From assembly GCA_004764695.1 (NCBI GenBank), contig SMSO01000037.1, forward strand, positions 1,596,247-1,660,246: a DNA stretch of 64,000 nt, in the 5' to 3' direction. This document shows, piece by piece, positions 67 to 18,169 of this stretch. Each line of letters opens with the position of its first letter. Position 1 is the first letter of the stretch. The position numbers and the translations under genes are program-made. A model generated the notes under the pieces. That model did no database searches, was not told the DNA's origin, and saw only the letters and a list, made by a program, of their open reading frames with translations. Origin of the DNA: Schizochytrium sp. TIO01 (taxonomy: Eukaryota > Sar > Bigyra > Thraustochytrida > Thraustochytriidae).

Positions 67-3000
67 TCACACTGATTCTGAGTCACAGGATTCGGTGGAC
101 CATGCTGCAATGGCACGATGGAGCTTGTTTGGGAAAACGTCTGGTTCAACATGAACATTGGTGAAATCCATTCCTGTTACAATCCAGCGATCTAGTAATT
201 CTGGTAACTCCCAGGGCCCACGTCGATCAAAGATAACTGGTTGATCCATTGGCTCTCCACTAAATGCCCGGAGGCTGAGCCGCTTCGAAAGTCTGTCAGT
301 CGGCAGGTCTTCGTACTTGATCGTTTGAGCAACCTCTGAGCGAATTTGGCGTTCCCACTCTGGCCAAGATACCAACCACTGCTCGAACTGCTCGTCCGTG
401 ACGCTCAATGCAGCTTCTTTAGCCACGTTAATGTCCTCTTCCGTGACGTTCACAAACGAACGGTAGAGCATAGCTACAGCGGAGACTGGAAGATCAAGCT
501 CTTCCCGAAGTGAAATTTCATAGCGAAGATACACACATACATCATCTTGAGTAGCACCCGGATGGTGCGCAGCATGTTCTCGAACGATTTGAAGCCTCAT
601 TACCCTTTTCCCTAAAGCGCGAAGAGCCTCACGGTCTCCTCTTGCATTTATAACAAGGGTGATTAAATACATATCATTGAGCGCCCAGATAGGTTTGTCT
701 GAACAAGAATCGATTGCGTCAGAGATTCGGGACAAAAGCTCTTCACGAACACCATCAGGATCATCTTGCAAAGTTTGAAGAAGTTCCACCACCCGCTTAG
801 CTAGTCCTTCTCGTAGATCTGGACGACGAAACTCAGCACTTCGCAACAGAAGGTTCAAGAAGGCTAATACAGAGGAGTGATAAAAGGAATCTAATACTTC
901 TTGAAGAGACAAATGAGATTCTAGGTGTGCTTCATCTTCCCAAAACTTCACAGCCTCTTCCAGAGTCTGGTGTTGTCGTGGTCGACCACCCTTCGAGTCA
1001 CCGAGATCGAGCTCAAGCAAGGTAAATAAAGCGCCGCACCTCGCACGGAGAATCTCAAGATCGAAATCTCTACCAATAGGAGAGGTTTCATCTACTACAA
1101 TACTCTGTGCATGTCGAATAACTGAGTCAGGAAGAGTGTCCAAGCTGCTGCAATTAGTGATCTTGATGCTGGAGGTCACACGGACGGACTCTGGGACTAC
1201 TTGCAACTCAGGGTTATCTTCCATGGTAAGAATACGGACTCGAAGGCGCTCAGGAAGGTGAACAAGACGTGTACAATCGCAAATATCAAGTGATTGACGA
1301 ACTCGAATATTCGGCGGGAGTTCGACAAGTGATGGTAGTTTTCGCAACGCAAGCGAGCCTCTCAGGTTTATCACGTCTGGCAAAAGCTCCAAACTTGGAC
1401 AAGAGTCAACGCGAAGGTTGCCTCGGCAGACCAAATCAGAAGGCAAACTGATCAGATTGAGGCATTGGTATACCACGAGGTCGCCAACTTGAATACCATG
1501 AGGAATCGTAAGCATGCCACACTGCTCTATACGTAGAACTCGCTTCACCTTGAAAGTTGAGCCTGAGGTTTCGAGTTGCGAGCATTGTACAATATGACAC
1601 ATGTCGACATTCATTCCTTCCGGAAGCTTCATGAGCCCAACATTTCTTAACGAGACACTTTGCCTACCACTTGGATTAAAAAATGAACTTGGGAGTGAAT
1701 TCAGATTTGTACAGCTGTATATAGAGCACTTTTCACGAACTTGTACTCCCTCAAGAATATGCGTAAGGGAGGGCATATTCTTAATATAAATAGTGTCAAC
1801 ACGAACACCTGATGGAATTGCTTCAAGGGGGCAGCGTTTTGCTTTGAACAAATTTCGTACTACCAAATCTTCAGGTAAGTCATACAGTTCAGTACAACCT
1901 GCTATAATCAGTTCAGACACCTGTAGGCCTTTTGGTAGTGTACGCAAGGGAGTGCTGCGAATACGAAGGTGCTCATTGATGCGTAAATGTCCCAGTTCAT
2001 TTAGGCTCTCGCAATGTTCAATAACGAGTTTCTCCAACTGTAAGATGTCAGGCAACTGTCTGAGAGATTTACAATGGGTCAACACGAGTGTCTCTGACAC
2101 TTGTATACTTTCAATACTTTCGAGATGAGCGCAGTGGTGTATCTCAAAGTGGAGAAGATCGATTACAGTTGGCAATTCCGTAATTAACGGCAGACCGTCC
2201 AAAACCAGCATTGTGCTGATCCGCATATCTGCGGGAAGGAACTGGAGGTTTGGACAACGTTTGACCACTAGTGTTGAAAGACTCAGGTTAGCTGGGAGCT
2301 CTGATATTTCGATGCAATCTTCAAGATGAATACCTATACCTTGCCATGGAAAGTTTGATGAAAAATGTATTGCGCTTGGCCACTTGCGTAAGGTAAGTTG
2401 ACCACAAAATCGTATTCCCTTTCCAAGGGTGAGGGTTGAGGATGTATGATGTTCGAGTTTCAAACCATCAATTGTAACTGTGTTCGAAATATCTACTGAT
2501 CCCTGACTTCGGTGATGGACTTCGAGATGAATCCACTTAAGTAATGCAGTGAGAACAGCAAGGTCTGAGTGGACCAGCTTTAGGCCCACGGCTGTAAGAC
2601 GGAAGCTTTCAAGATCAATAGCAGTCCCATGTAGTAGAATTTCCCTGCAACGCTCAGCTCGGTGTTCAATCGACATAGATAAGAGAAAAGTAAAGAGGCT
2701 CTCCAAAGTCTTTGACGCATCATTGCCTTGAGAGAAAGCAATTGATGTCAGCGTGTTGGACTTGGCAACTAATCCAACGAGCGGTGTAAGTTGTTCTGAC
2801 GCCAAATTGCATTCTTGAATGCGCAGTTTCTGAATGCTGTTATGCTTTTCTAAGGCATTTGTAAGTTTTCCCATTGTGCTTAGAGACATCGGAGTGCGTA
2901 CGAAATCTAGTTCCTGAAGCCCAACATTTCTTCCAATGCTCTCTGCGAAGGATGTAAAGCCGCTAACTGACATCGTCTTTTCAGCTTCCTCTGTGCAGAA

Positions 3001-5286
3001 TCTTAATTTCTCTACCCGTAAAGACTTGAGTTCTTCCATTGCAAGCGTGTCACAGAGACCTGCCCACGGCATACCAAGATCACCCGCTGATACTTTGATC
3101 TCGAGCTTCCTCAAAGTAAACGGTGAGGTGGCTGTAATTGCCCCAAGCATTGCATCCAACAGATCAGTAGAGCTGGTTACTTCTAGTTCGTGGATTCCGC
3201 CCAAGCCAGATCGAAAGGCACGCATGAAATGCTGCTTGTGCGAAGTCGAGTCAATGCATACACAAAGTCTAGATGATGATCGGGATGCCAGCGACTTCAT
3301 GAAGCGTTGAGCATAACCAGCTCTCTCGGCTGCTGTACAAGCTGGTGCCGACGAAGGACCCTGACTAAGATTCAACCGGCGAAGTTTAGATATTGTCCCA
3401 TCTTCAGTTCCGAAAGCAGGTAAGTCACGTAATGCTTCCTTGTACAAATTGTTGCTACCAAGATCAAGCGATTGTAGTGAAACATTTTCCTGTAATGCTG
3501 CAGAAATAATATCCCAACCTTCATTAATTGAATTGTAACTTAAGTCGAGGTGCTTAAGCACAGCATTTTGGCGTAGCATGTGTTGCAAAGAATCAGTAAA
3601 GTCCTCAGTGAGGCAGTTTGATGCTAAATTGAGGCCTATAAGACGATGATTTTCAGAGAGCTGCACCATTGCAATTCGCCCAAGAAGGTCGTTGATTTCG
3701 TTTGCAGAGAGGTCCAAAAATAATAATCTAGAGTCCGGACCTAGGAGATCTATCCATGGTGGTGCCACTGTGTCTTCAGCATTTCCAGCAGGGACAATAC
3801 CTGAGATACCAACCAAATTTTTACTCAGGTTGAGAGATTGCAGATCGCCTTTTCGATAGACCAGAGCAGCAGCTAAGTCTCCAGCGCCGCGGTCCGATAT
3901 TCCAGTGTCACTGAGATCAAGAGAGATAAGGGACGGTAAAACCCCGTTAACAAGCTCTTTACATAGCGCCGTGCAGCCGGAGTCCCCAAGCTTGCTCTGC
4001 GAAAGATCGAGATGCCGGACACCATGAAAGGATCGGCAAAGAAGAGTTACGCTATGTGGCCTTTGGTTACTCTCCAGGCATGTCAGCCCAGAGAGCAGCA
4101 ACGAGCGCACTGAATTATTACTACGTCTTTCGGAAATCTTCCGCAGCGCTGAGCGAAATGAATTCTCCTTTTGACGTGCCAACCAGCTAGAAATAGGGGT
4201 CGCCTGGGCATATGGTTCGAATGTGAAATTTGGCCCAAGGTTGACTGTTACCGATGAAACATGGTGACGTGCAGAGGCCACTGAAAGTGCAGGGACAATA
4301 CCTTTCCAAAGAGCAAAGTCGTTAAATGCAAGGCCACACGGTTTCTGCCATTGACCATTTACGCTGAAATACATGACTTTTTGATCCAGGTCAACATAGC
4401 AACCAATAATATCGCCCGTTTTGCATCGTCGGCCAAACTCTTCCGCACGAGAATCGGCGATAATCTGAGCCTGAGAAGGGTCGTAAGCCCAACTGTAGAG
4501 GTTGTCGCCAACACCAGCCCCATGACCATCTTCAAAAGATGTTGCAACCCACCAAGTATCTGTCCACCCGATTCGGGCAGATGCCCATGAAGCCTCTCCA
4601 CACCACCCTGAGAGATCAACTTCGTAGTAAAAGCACCCTCGCCCTGTACGAAGTGGAGCCATTTCTTTGAGTGCTACAGTTGTAAAAGCCCCAGAAAAGG
4701 TGATATGAACTTTGCCATCTCCAGAACGCTCAAATTCGGCAGATCCAGACAGAACTTTGAACGGAGCCTGTCCCGATACCTCGTATGTTGAGGATAAATT
4801 AAGGCCTTCGCATGACGAGGTTCTATTTGCATCGATCAAGAGTGAAGCAAGGGTTTGTCCACTGAGAAACTCAGCGCCCTCAAGGTTAATAATGCGAGGA
4901 GCGTGATTTCCGCGTAGCGTTTTGGACAACTGCGCACTAACTTTTGTGGACAAAGTGCACCGTGAAAGATCAAGAAGATCAAATGTTTTTGTTTTGCGTA
5001 ATGCTGACCACAATTCGCGGCTATCAAGAAATCGGACTAGAAGATCATCTGGGCTTACAATTGCACCAAATTCATCCTGTGTGAGCATATAGAGGATTGC
5101 TCGCCGCAGGTGGATGTCCTTTTCGCCTTCAAGTTCATGGACACCATCGCCAAGGCCCAGTCGATCTTTATGACGTGATTCTGTAACCATGAGAGCTCTT
5201 TCACCAAGAAATCGTGCAACACCTGCAACTATACTGTTGCGTGTAAATGTAACGCGACGACTTCGCCGCTTTGACCCGTCGCTCAT
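67..5286 (-). CDS. LRR-SPRY-LRR protein with a C-terminal bacterial-type NEL E3 ubiquitin ligase-like domain
   Basis: Single exon, 1739 residues. From the N-terminus: a basic start and unassigned segment (1-210); a SPRY/B30.2-like domain (about 213-353, with GRGCFYYEV, RIGWTD and YFSVNGQW); ribonuclease-inhibitor-type LRRs of about 28 residues (about 390-640, repeated LxxLDLSxN); a divergent LRR-like stretch (640-960); then 19 full plus one partial short repeats of 19-23 residues (994-1390, pattern LPxxLxVxxLxIxxCxxL). These short repeats resemble LRRs of bacterial IpaH/SspH-class effectors. The C-terminus (about 1440-1672) is all-helical and has the NEL landmarks: a CSDK motif (Cys1528, Asp1530; the family's catalytic CxD), then LNDM, a VYLRYEISLREELDLP stretch, LYRSF and a WPEWERQI segment. 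NEL proteins transfer ubiquitin through a Cys thioester, and the LRRs choose the substrate. No signal peptide or membrane helix is seen. LRR and SPRY calls are strong; NEL is a by-eye family match that I consider likely. Activity and substrate are unknown. Confidence 0.85.
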   Translation of the reverse strand: MSDGSKRRSRRVTFTRNSIVAGVARFLGERALMVTESRHKDRLGLGDGVHELEGEKDIHLRRAILYMLTQDEFGAIVSPDDLLVRFLDSRELWSALRKTKTFDLLDLSRCTLSTKVSAQLSKTLRGNHAPRIINLEGAEFLSGQTLASLLIDANRTSSCEGLNLSSTYEVSGQAPFKVLSGSAEFERSGDGKVHITFSGAFTTVALKEMAPLRTGRGCFYYEVDLSGWCGEASWASARIGWTDTWWVATSFEDGHGAGVGDNLYSWAYDPSQAQIIADSRAEEFGRRCKTGDIIGCYVDLDQKVMYFSVNGQWQKPCGLAFNDFALWKGIVPALSVASARHHVSSVTVNLGPNFTFEPYAQATPISSWLARQKENSFRSALRKISERRSNNSVRSLLLSGLTCLESNQRPHSVTLLCRSFHGVRHLDLSQSKLGDSGCTALCKELVNGVLPSLISLDLSDTGISDRGAGDLAAALVYRKGDLQSLNLSKNLVGISGIVPAGNAEDTVAPPWIDLLGPDSRLLFLDLSANEINDLLGRIAMVQLSENHRLIGLNLASNCLTEDFTDSLQHMLRQNAVLKHLDLSYNSINEGWDIISAALQENVSLQSLDLGSNNLYKEALRDLPAFGTEDGTISKLRRLNLSQGPSSAPACTAAERAGYAQRFMKSLASRSSSRLCVCIDSTSHKQHFMRAFRSGLGGIHELEVTSSTDLLDAMLGAITATSPFTLRKLEIKVSAGDLGMPWAGLCDTLAMEELKSLRVEKLRFCTEEAEKTMSVSGFTSFAESIGRNVGLQELDFVRTPMSLSTMGKLTNALEKHNSIQKLRIQECNLASEQLTPLVGLVAKSNTLTSIAFSQGNDASKTLESLFTFLLSMSIEHRAERCREILLHGTAIDLESFRLTAVGLKLVHSDLAVLTALLKWIHLEVHHRSQGSVDISNTVTIDGLKLEHHTSSTLTLGKGIRFCGQLTLRKWPSAIHFSSNFPWQGIGIHLEDCIEISELPANLSLSTLVVKRCPNLQFLPADMRISTMLVLDGLPLITELPTVIDLLHFEIHHCAHLESIESIQVSETLVLTHCKSLRQLPDILQLEKLVIEHCESLNELGHLRINEHLRIRSTPLRTLPKGLQVSELIIAGCTELYDLPEDLVVRNLFKAKRCPLEAIPSGVRVDTIYIKNMPSLTHILEGVQVREKCSIYSCTNLNSLPSSFFNPSGRQSVSLRNVGLMKLPEGMNVDMCHIVQCSQLETSGSTFKVKRVLRIEQCGMLTIPHGIQVGDLVVYQCLNLISLPSDLVCRGNLRVDSCPSLELLPDVINLRGSLALRKLPSLVELPPNIRVRQSLDICDCTRLVHLPERLRVRILTMEDNPELQVVPESVRVTSSIKITNCSSLDTLPDSVIRHAQSIVVDETSPIGRDFDLEILRARCGALFTLLELDLGDSKGGRPRQHQTLEEAVKFWEDEAHLESHLSLQEVLDSFYHSSVLAFLNLLLRSAEFRRPDLREGLAKRVVELLQTLQDDPDGVREELLSRISDAIDSCSDKPIWALNDMYLITLVINARGDREALRALGKRVMRLQIVREHAAHHPGATQDDVCVYLRYEISLREELDLPVSAVAMLYRSFVNVTEEDINVAKEAALSVTDEQFEQWLVSWPEWERQIRSEVAQTIKYEDLPTDRLSKRLSLRAFSGEPMDQPVIFDRRGPWELPELLDRWIVTGMDFTNVHVEPDVFPNKLHRAIAAWSTESCDSESV

Positions 5287-15970: not shown

Positions 15971-18169
15971 TTACACGCGAATCGTTGCGCCCTCAAACAA
16001 GTAGAGCAGGAAGATGGATGTGAGGGCGACCATCAGAACAGCGCCCAAGAGAAATGGGCCAACCTCATCGTGGAACTCTCCCTGGCGAGCGTGAAGGTTG
16101 CGTCCACGCCAGTAGTACGTAGCCAGGGCATAACCAATGAAAATAATAGCAACAGGCAGCAGCAGCATACCAACAATCCGTGCGCCTTCATGACCCATGG
16201 AAGTGGGGTCATCGCCGGGGGCCTCGCCACCACCAAAACCAAGCAAAGCAGCACTAATGGAGCCCATAGTAATAGCCATCGAAAGCCAGTTAAGAAGGGT
16301 GCGCTCGTTGGCAAAGAAGACCTTGGGTTCAATCTTGGTGGGCACCTTGCGTGGCTTAGACAGAGTCTCTGTCTTAGAGGAACGAAAGCAAGGGCCGCAA
16401 ATCCAAGAGAAAAATCCAGTAGGACGGTGGACAAAGACAAACTCCTCGGAGGCATCATCGCCATTCAAAGGATGGGACTCAGACGGGTTGAGAGTTCCAT
16501 AACCCGCAGCCTTGTGCTTAGCACCAACCACAGAGTCTTTACGCTCCATGAGCTGAATAGTTTCCGCAGGACCGAAGGCAAAGGGGTATTTCTTTCGATC
16601 GTTCTTGCCATTAGATGCCTCTCCAAGGAGACTACGGCGCTTTTGCACAGGTTGCGAGCGAAGCATGGAGGGACGGATTGATTCATCATCCACCCAGTAC
16701 GGTACAGCTTGGACATCCTCAGAGAGAAGAGTGGCTACACCATGTACAAACTTGGAAAACTTCGCAACGCGGGTGCAAAGCCCAGACTCAAGAAGGTCAG
16801 TGACCCATGCAGGTGCTTCTTCGCCCTCCTTGAGAGAAAGCTTCACCTCCAGAACAGCGTGCGGGAACTGAGTGTACTCAGTGGGCGGGAGTACGAGAGA
16901 GGGGTTGCGGTACCAACGCTTTTCCGTAGCGCAGTCCGGGCCAACCTTGGGGTTTTCAGTAATCATGGCAAGGTTGGTATCCAAGGAGATGCGCACGGTG
17001 GGGTCAAAAGGAATCTGGTAGGCCACACGGTTGTAGACAGTGCGCATGGTAGGGCGCAGCTGCTTGGAGTCGATTTGCTGGTAAATTTCGGTAAAGAGAC
17101 GACGGACGTTCTCCATGTCAGCCTCAGAGGAGTTCTTGGCACGCATCTGGGCCAGCTTGTCCTCCACGGTGAACTCTCCGCGAAGAAAAGGCATAACTTC
17201 GTGCTCCTTGAGGGTGAAACGCTCCTTCACAGAAACATCACCGGTCCAGGAGTCACGATGCGTCTTGCGCTCAACAAAGACCAATTCAGGCTCTTGGGTA
17301 GCATACCAGCGGAAGCGGATTGCAATGGCGTTTGGCGTTTTGTCAAGGCGGCCGTGGTAGAGCTCCAGCTGAGTGTTGTCAAAGTACACCGAGGAGCAGA
17401 ACTGAGAGTCGCCTTGCAAGGCGTCAAGGTTATGCTGAAAGACCGGCAAGTGCTGCAGCACAATGTGCTTAACCTTAGAGATATCCTCGGTACGCACCCA
17501 GTATTTGGTGGTACTACGGACAAAGTTTTGCGCAGTGGTACCTTCATTCTTACCTGAACGGTCACCACGAAGACGGGCATGAATCTGACTCAGGTAAACA
17601 AACACCTTACTGTAATCATGGCGCACCCAGCGCTGGCTATGCAAGCGCATGATGTAGAAGCGGCGGCACGGTGTGGGTAGCTGCTTATCGTGCTTCTTCA
17701 GAATCTTGTGGAAGCCGAGGTAATTGAGGTTGGCAAACTTTTCAATGCGAAGAAAGTCATCTCCAAGCTTGGTGGCCTCCTCAAGGCATTTTTTGCGGTC
17801 CTCCTCGCTAAGCTTGGAGATATCAATATCAACGCCAACACGGGCTTCAAGAGCGTCTGTCTTCTTCTTGATAGATTGTAGCTCTCCATGAGTGAAGTCA
17901 TCAATCTTTTTCATCTCGGCCTCGAGAAATGTAAAGAAGTCAGCCTCGGTGATGTCTTGACCCTCGAACTTGCCATAGATCCCCTGGTTGGGAACCGTAC
18001 TAAGCGAGGTAACACGCTCACCGTAGCCACTCTTTCCGATATCAACGTCCAGGCCAGTAGACTCCACAGCAGCCAAAGCCTTGATCATGGCTTTGAGCCG
18101 CTTGTAGTCAACATAATATGACTCCCATCCTTCAACGCGCTGCGCCTCGAGGTACTGTCCGAACTTCAT
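15971..18169 (-). CDS. VTC4: SPX-VTC-DUF202 polyphosphate polymerase (VTC4-like)
   Basis: 732 residues. It makes inorganic polyphosphate from ATP and moves it into vacuoles or acidocalcisomes. The SPX domain (1 to about 170) starts canonically with MKFGQYLEAQ and has the basic cluster KILKKHDK (155-162) that in SPX proteins binds inositol (pyro)phosphates. The VTC tunnel domain (about 215-490) keeps the expected charged residues: RFRW (R285, R287), VERKTHRD (K302, H304), the R376/R381 pair, LEVKL (E441, K443) and K473. After a polar linker, a DUF202 module (about 614-730) gives three membrane helices, opened by ANERTLLNWLS. The order and length match yeast Vtc4, and the active-site residues look intact, so this should be the catalytic subunit. 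No separate VTC1-like gene is seen in the window. Confidence 0.93.
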   Translation of the reverse strand: MKFGQYLEAQRVEGWESYYVDYKRLKAMIKALAAVESTGLDVDIGKSGYGERVTSLSTVPNQGIYGKFEGQDITEADFFTFLEAEMKKIDDFTHGELQSIKKKTDALEARVGVDIDISKLSEEDRKKCLEEATKLGDDFLRIEKFANLNYLGFHKILKKHDKQLPTPCRRFYIMRLHSQRWVRHDYSKVFVYLSQIHARLRGDRSGKNEGTTAQNFVRSTTKYWVRTEDISKVKHIVLQHLPVFQHNLDALQGDSQFCSSVYFDNTQLELYHGRLDKTPNAIAIRFRWYATQEPELVFVERKTHRDSWTGDVSVKERFTLKEHEVMPFLRGEFTVEDKLAQMRAKNSSEADMENVRRLFTEIYQQIDSKQLRPTMRTVYNRVAYQIPFDPTVRISLDTNLAMITENPKVGPDCATEKRWYRNPSLVLPPTEYTQFPHAVLEVKLSLKEGEEAPAWVTDLLESGLCTRVAKFSKFVHGVATLLSEDVQAVPYWVDDESIRPSMLRSQPVQKRRSLLGEASNGKNDRKKYPFAFGPAETIQLMERKDSVVGAKHKAAGYGTLNPSESHPLNGDDASEEFVFVHRPTGFFSWICGPCFRSSKTETLSKPRKVPTKIEPKVFFANERTLLNWLSMAITMGSISAALLGFGGGEAPGDDPTSMGHEGARIVGMLLLPVAIIFIGYALATYYWRGRNLHARQGEFHDEVGPFLLGAVLMVALTSIFLLYLFEGATIRV

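Follow-up and report, generated by a model that had tools for sequence, protein, structure and literature searches.

Predicted NEL-type ubiquitin ligases with a U-box-like C-terminal domain in a gene family of the thraustochytrid Schizochytrium sp. TIO01

Ubiquitin ligases (E3s) with a NEL catalytic domain are described, in the passages devoted to them, as bacterial effectors whose structure is unlike that of host E3s (PMC9320238, PMC12506513), and NEL is likewise treated as bacterial in the relevant parts of PMC6557245 and PMC11354881. The number of species with NEL proteins predicted in databases exceeds 900; the section of the text that gives this figure does not state the eukaryotic share (PMC9320238). 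The C-terminal end of bacterial NELs is described as a helical "thumb" to which E2-ubiquitin, the conjugating enzyme (E2) charged with ubiquitin, is bound (E2-Ub; PMC12506513), and the repeat part of the protein is reported to keep the NEL domain shut until a substrate is bound (PMC12506513, PMC9320238). Here, we describe a NEL gene from a 64,000-nucleotide stretch of Schizochytrium sp. TIO01 (GenBank assembly GCA_004764695.1, contig SMSO01000037.1, positions 1,596,247 to 1,660,246), referred to below as the window. The gene, located at 67–5286 on the reverse strand, probably encodes an endogenous eukaryotic composite E3 ubiquitin ligase that would combine U-box-like docking of the charged E2 with a NEL cysteine relay. 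It belongs to a family whose computed features are a NEL core with the CxD motif, a tail of U-box-like predicted fold at the thumb's distance from the catalytic cysteine, variable N-termini, and proportionally fewer nonsynonymous (pN) than synonymous (pS) differences between copies.

Among the matches listed in open-licence literature, no paper on a eukaryotic NEL family was found; public annotation databases may already list eukaryotic matches to the NEL profile of Pfam, PF14496. A related claim concerns green-alga genes called KfNLR, where Kf is presumably Klebsormidium. These genes, too, are claimed to place NEL-related, bacteria-like sequence in a eukaryote, and the claim rests on an LRR (leucine-rich repeat) stretch of the ODAL superfamily that is called highly homologous to NEL; the CxD motif or a catalytic domain is not described in the passages concerned (PMC7145615). 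The profiles with which the Giardia proteome was screened also included PF14496; the main text of that paper contains no "NEL" (PMC7029713). Against this background, the family described here is new as a variant of the NEL ligases, and there is a real chance that it constitutes a separate class.

The window gene is a single open frame, uninterrupted across 1739 residues including the stop codon, and the open reading frame list together with a Pfam scan gives the order SPRY, LRR, LPX-like repeats, NEL and U-box-like tail. The first-pass annotation, made from the letters alone, had placed a NEL domain at 271–969 (residues 1440–1672) and had assigned Cys1528 and Asp1530 to the catalytic CxD. Both statements were borne out. 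PF14496 matches residues 1472–1654 (325–873) with an E-value of 1.8e-28 and 99.9 bits against a cut-off of 24, and the helical domain as a whole, delimited by PF14496, the model helices and the Foldseek and VIA-align superpositions on NEL structures, covers residues 1442–1655 (322–963, reverse strand). When PDB sequences were searched with phmmer, 12 of the 13 rows obtained were IpaH, SspH1, SlrP or SspH2 (best E 1.4e-11), the thirteenth being unrelated (E 0.52). In the phmmer alignment with the IpaH/SspH-class ligases, "SCSDK" of the window protein stands opposite "SCEDR", which puts Cys1528 (codon 703–705), the predicted nucleophile, and Asp1530 (codon 697–699) on the catalytic CxD; this cysteine also aligns with the NELs of Bradyrhizobium. 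Counted on the same alignment, Asp1581 (codon 544–546) is the equivalent of Asp397 of IpaH9.8, a residue named as important for activity in the account available to us (PMC9320238). An AlphaFold model of residues 1425–1739 built from a 17-row alignment reached a predicted local distance difference test (pLDDT) of 88.3 and a predicted template modelling score (pTM) of 0.82. With this model, the nine best rows of a Foldseek search against the PDB were all NEL structures (best E 5.8e-6), and the tenth had an E-value of 3.0; the window protein thus has the helical NEL fold in the model, both by Foldseek and by VIA-align. Profile match, structure match and alignment of Cys1528, the points on which the prediction was said to stand or fall, therefore all speak for NEL.

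The window gene is not alone in its genome. PF14496 finds 19 places in the same assembly, corresponding to 18 loci on nine contigs, all 18 above the cut-off, while none of 14 control genomes gave a match. Seventeen loci could be aligned over NEL and tail; the eighteenth, on contig C31 and split between two frames, was excluded. The aligned copies are 32 to 47% identical to the one in the window, and the 21 invariant columns include C104 and D106, the counterparts of Cys1528 and Asp1530, so that the CxD is present in 17/17 copies; the residue corresponding to Asp1581 is D in 16 of them and E in L018.

That the NEL domain should be inactive and serve as a scaffold or adaptor is quite improbable in the face of catalytic residues kept in every aligned paralogue, even though one of the 18 loci is broken across two frames and the ligase activity of the family is a prediction. 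For NEL plus tail, each of the 136 pairwise comparisons of the 17 copies gives a pN lower than pS; for the tail part, 134 of the 136 do. This fits purifying selection but is no strong measure of it, since synonymous sites are near saturation (the closest pair has pN 0.25 and pS 0.88).

At the broken locus (L025, C31:2872556–2873342), the NEL spans two frames, contains one stop and is followed by a tail; this may reflect decay of the copy, an intron or an error in sequencing. Three NEL genes (L013, L014 and L023) lie within 17 kb at C24:1949952–1966773. The start of L019 is uncertain because the first methionine comes late in its frame, and an open frame of 23,648 residues around one NEL was rejected, as it runs through N letters.

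Nothing was found in favour of bacterial contamination, a reading to which we give next to no probability. The contig that holds the window, at 1.6 Mb, is 5.0 Mb long and belongs to an assembly of 64.06 Mb in 37 contigs; the 18 loci are spread over nine contigs of 2.3–9.8 Mb. Eukaryotic genes are neighbours within the same window, the same genome gives 26 matches to the E2 family (UQ_con) and 16 exact matches to the universal 18S start primer, and family members are fused to SPRY and armadillo (Arm) repeat domains. Moreover, the 17 unbroken loci score 79–109 bits on PF14496 against 196–247 in five Bradyrhizobium genomes, that is, less than 60%. The earlier statement that the gene sits in a eukaryotic chromosome and that contamination is unlikely has therefore held.

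The C-terminal end distinguishes the family from bacterial NELs. A domain of about 60 residues is found in all 17 paralogues at the thumb's distance from the catalytic cysteine; in the window protein, it covers residues 1669–1728 (103–282, reverse strand), as delimited by predicted fold and profile comparison, and the interval of the first-pass annotation took in only its first four residues. In the AlphaFold models, the order of elements is strand, strand, helix, strand, so the predicted tail differs from the helical E2-Ub thumb, and the window protein is therefore classed as a variant of the NEL ligases and not among their ordinary members. The predicted fold is U-box-like with weak Foldseek E-values, and the matches listed in the fold search were E2-binding ligase domains or spliceosome chains. 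Relative to the U-box and SP-RING domains of Prp19, AvrPtoB, LubX (U-box 2), UBE4B and SIZ/PIAS, the tail shares the predicted fold, the topology, a hydrophobic loop 1 and a pattern near "L-x-G-x-x-M/I-x-D-P-V", which reads FSGEPMDQPV in the window copy. It differs from them in forming one chain with a cysteine-type NEL and not acting by itself, in escaping the Pfam U-box model, and in mostly lacking, by eye, the loop-2 proline. U-boxes contact E2 through a hydrophobic residue in loop 1 and a proline in loop 2; the loop-1 position is hydrophobic in 17/17 tails, and the proline is seen by eye in six of the 17, the window copy not being one of them.

Profile comparisons place the tail near the U-box at a distance. 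The tail profile compared with a U-box profile from the same genome gave P 4.1e-4, and none of 600 shuffles was as good, yet the probability reported is 34.7%. PF04564, the Pfam U-box, matches none of the 17 tails at E up to 10, while it does match five other places in the genome. Against PDB sequences, the tail profile had one match (E 0.55), which was no U-box. Five other Pfam families were hit on the tails, each in one member (best CheR_N, E 0.0011), and were dismissed as chance.

These data bear on two further explanations. The protein might be an ordinary NEL ligase whose core alone docks E2 and catalyses, the tail being a structural cap or a protein-binding part that merely resembles a U-box; the Pfam result, the weak Foldseek E-values and the missing loop-2 prolines would suit it. 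We nevertheless consider it rather unlikely, given that the tail sits at the known position of the E2-Ub thumb, that its listed fold matches are E2-binding ligase domains or spliceosome chains, and that the loop-1 position is hydrophobic throughout. Conversely, the predicted fold of the tail could point to a U-box-type ligase with a vestigial NEL, in which the tail acts like a RING or U-box and the cysteine is unused. This is highly improbable, for the CxD and the Asp397 equivalent are kept at the frequencies given above in spite of the low identity to the window copy, and in the three closest pairs, the core changes less than the tail (pN 0.21–0.25 versus 0.28–0.38). A composite ligase in which both parts work remains the preferred reading.

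The bacterial matches listed for the window protein end no later than about ten residues into the U-box-like domain. A tblastn search of plasmids returned 35 places in 29 records (22 from Edwardsiella, four from Escherichia and one each from Serratia, Bradyrhizobium and Salmonella); when the best place of each record was compared, all 29 ended at query residue 254 (residue 1678) or earlier. The plasmid matches thus reach at most 10 residues into the U-box-like stretch and end before its conserved Pro-Val strand and helix. In 398 genomes from the phylum of a Bradyrhizobium, of which at most five candidates per genome were scored, the model of the paralogue alignment found 18 places in nine genomes, all ending at or before position 250 of 341, and PF14496 matched in the same nine. 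Since the first conserved glycine of the domain (residue 1677) lies at about position 251 of 331 by our own count (the search model having 341), these matches also stop at the edge of the U-box-like domain.

When the window tail was searched in its own genome at E up to 1, 15 places were obtained. One is at the broken copy and the other 14 fall within reading frames of NEL genes; the two lowest-ranking places have weak E-values (0.015 and 0.019), and this search missed three of the NEL loci. Because the listed bacterial matches end within ten residues of its start and its own-genome matches lie at NEL loci, the tail appears, as far as searched, to travel with NEL in this genome and to replace the bacterial thumb. 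Profile comparison revealed no relation between Bradyrhizobium tails and U-boxes (P 0.27), nor a clear one between these tails and those of the eukaryotic proteins (P 0.045 over 10 columns). The first-pass annotation had proposed a chemistry separate from HECT, RBR and RING; as far as RING is concerned, this is probably not simply so, because the 17 aligned paralogues carry a U-box-like domain where bacterial NELs have the thumb.

Several genomes of the Bradyrhizobium phylum have their NEL matches in open frames of about 1,400–2,430 residues, compared with about 600–830 for most others, and up to seven NEL matches occur in one genome.

The NEL domain probably entered the lineage by gene transfer, in either direction, after which the thumb would have been replaced and the family expanded. 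In a tree confined to the 17 paralogues and four Bradyrhizobium rows, the eukaryotic rows stand apart from the bacterial ones; the median end branch is 0.44, and two of 18 inner branches are well supported. Long branches and weak inner support indicate that the family is old or fast, and with this sampling and support, no donor can be named. No relative was found in viral contigs, scanned with the paralogue alignment, or in a first scan of genome contigs, which are weak negatives, the patterns used being narrow and drawn from eukaryotic copies; phage records likewise gave no relative.

In front of the NEL domain, the window protein appears to resemble the bacterial ligases. LPX repeats are a feature of bacterial NEL effectors, and an array of LPxxLxV/LxLxxCxxL repeats, recognized by motif spacing, lies shortly before the NEL domain at residues ~986–1381 (1144–2331, reverse strand) as a putative substrate-binding part. 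Thirteen of its 18 motif-start spacings fall within 2 of a multiple of 20 residues and five do not; the best LRR-type Pfam match there is LRR_EndoS at E 0.026, and Pfam LRR matches are below cut-off. Since the LPxxL period of ~20 residues resembles that of the effectors' LPX repeats, the array and the NEL domain may have been acquired together. Bacterial members of PF14496 (IpaH, SspH1, SspH2, SlrP, NopM, RipAW and others) have a comparable array of such repeats before NEL, a NEL likewise located towards the C-terminal end, and the same helical catalytic domain with the CxD cysteine and the Asp397 equivalent. In contrast to them, the present proteins form a eukaryote-encoded paralogue family with a U-box-like domain instead of the two-helix thumb, and possess extra SPRY, Arm or hydrophobic N-terminal parts.

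In the window protein, the SPRY domain spans residues 219–342 (4261–4632, reverse strand; PF00622, E 8e-13, 49 bits, above cut-off). Farther on, an LRR stretch at residues 451–615 (3442–3936, reverse strand) is visible in the translation, with LRR_6, LRR_8 and LRR_4 matching weakly, below their cut-offs. A Pfam scan of 12 of the 17 members found NEL in all 12, SPRY in two (the window protein and L010) and armadillo repeats in one (L009). In the latter, L009:174–2087, NEL is fused to Arm repeats (E 4.6e-12), which are unusual as a partner in this NEL family, and LRR gave no match.

Hydropathy was scored, as a count and not with a signal-peptide predictor, in 17 proteins, namely 16 of the aligned ones and the broken copy. 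Strongly hydrophobic segments occur within the N-terminal 190 residues of three of them, suggesting that L013 and L014 (C24) and L012 (C13) are membrane-anchored NEL ligases. None of the 17 has a strongly hydrophobic start within the first 38 residues, where the highest 19-residue mean is 0.88. The organism might secrete these proteins to act on other cells, as do the injected NEL effectors treated in the corresponding sections of PMC9320238, rather than use them on its own proteins. Very little probability attaches to this, as the hydropathy count reveals no such start, the SPRY and Arm partners are of cytosolic type, and the proteins reach 1,986 residues. In the eukaryotic assembly, the family therefore does not answer to the description of bacterial proteins secreted into a host.

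For a composite ligase, the following course of reaction can be proposed. From the charged E2, docked on the U-box-like module, ubiquitin would move to Cys1528 by transthiolation; Asp1530 and Asp1581 would tune the active site, as their counterparts do in bacterial NELs. The substrate, bound by the repeat (LRR), SPRY or Arm part, would next receive the ubiquitin on one of its lysines, and the LRR-like array may restrain the NEL domain until substrate binds. RBR ligases combine an E2-docking RING-type module and a separate catalytic cysteine in one chain. By analogy, the present proteins would share this division of labour, reached from different parts: no RING1-IBR-RING2 zinc-binding modules were matched by Pfam in the 1739-residue protein at E up to 1, the catalytic part is NEL, and the order is reversed, catalytic first and E2-docking last.

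The chances are about even that eukaryotes have a further class of cysteine-relay ligases, "NEL-U-box", with U-box-like docking fused to a NEL core, expanded here under exchangeable N-termini (LRR, SPRY, Arm or membrane-type); its members might be receptors that recognize substrates or intruders. Bacterial effectors and this family would then represent one fold that has branched in two, each branch having its own E2-docking module. A function against intruders is guesswork based on how variable the LRR, SPRY and Arm parts are. If the proposal is true, a eukaryote runs its own NEL family, and NEL chemistry can be domesticated; the cysteine-relay E3 classes, which are few, would gain a composite architecture. 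Such a family would also be a natural experiment that could tell which NEL part determines autoinhibition and the choice of E2, and it would make testable where the bacterial effectors come from, with a gift from bacteria to a eukaryote and the reverse as the two possibilities.

As for the surroundings of the gene, no repeats of at least 60 bases were found in the 64,000-nucleotide window. Eight neighbouring frames were scanned, with matches including SPX-VTC, Lactamase_B_6/Beta-Casp, CH and a GTPase of the MMR_HSR1 family. The first of these, at 15971–18169, is an ordinary SPX-VTC-DUF202 protein, resembling a polyphosphate polymerase subunit.
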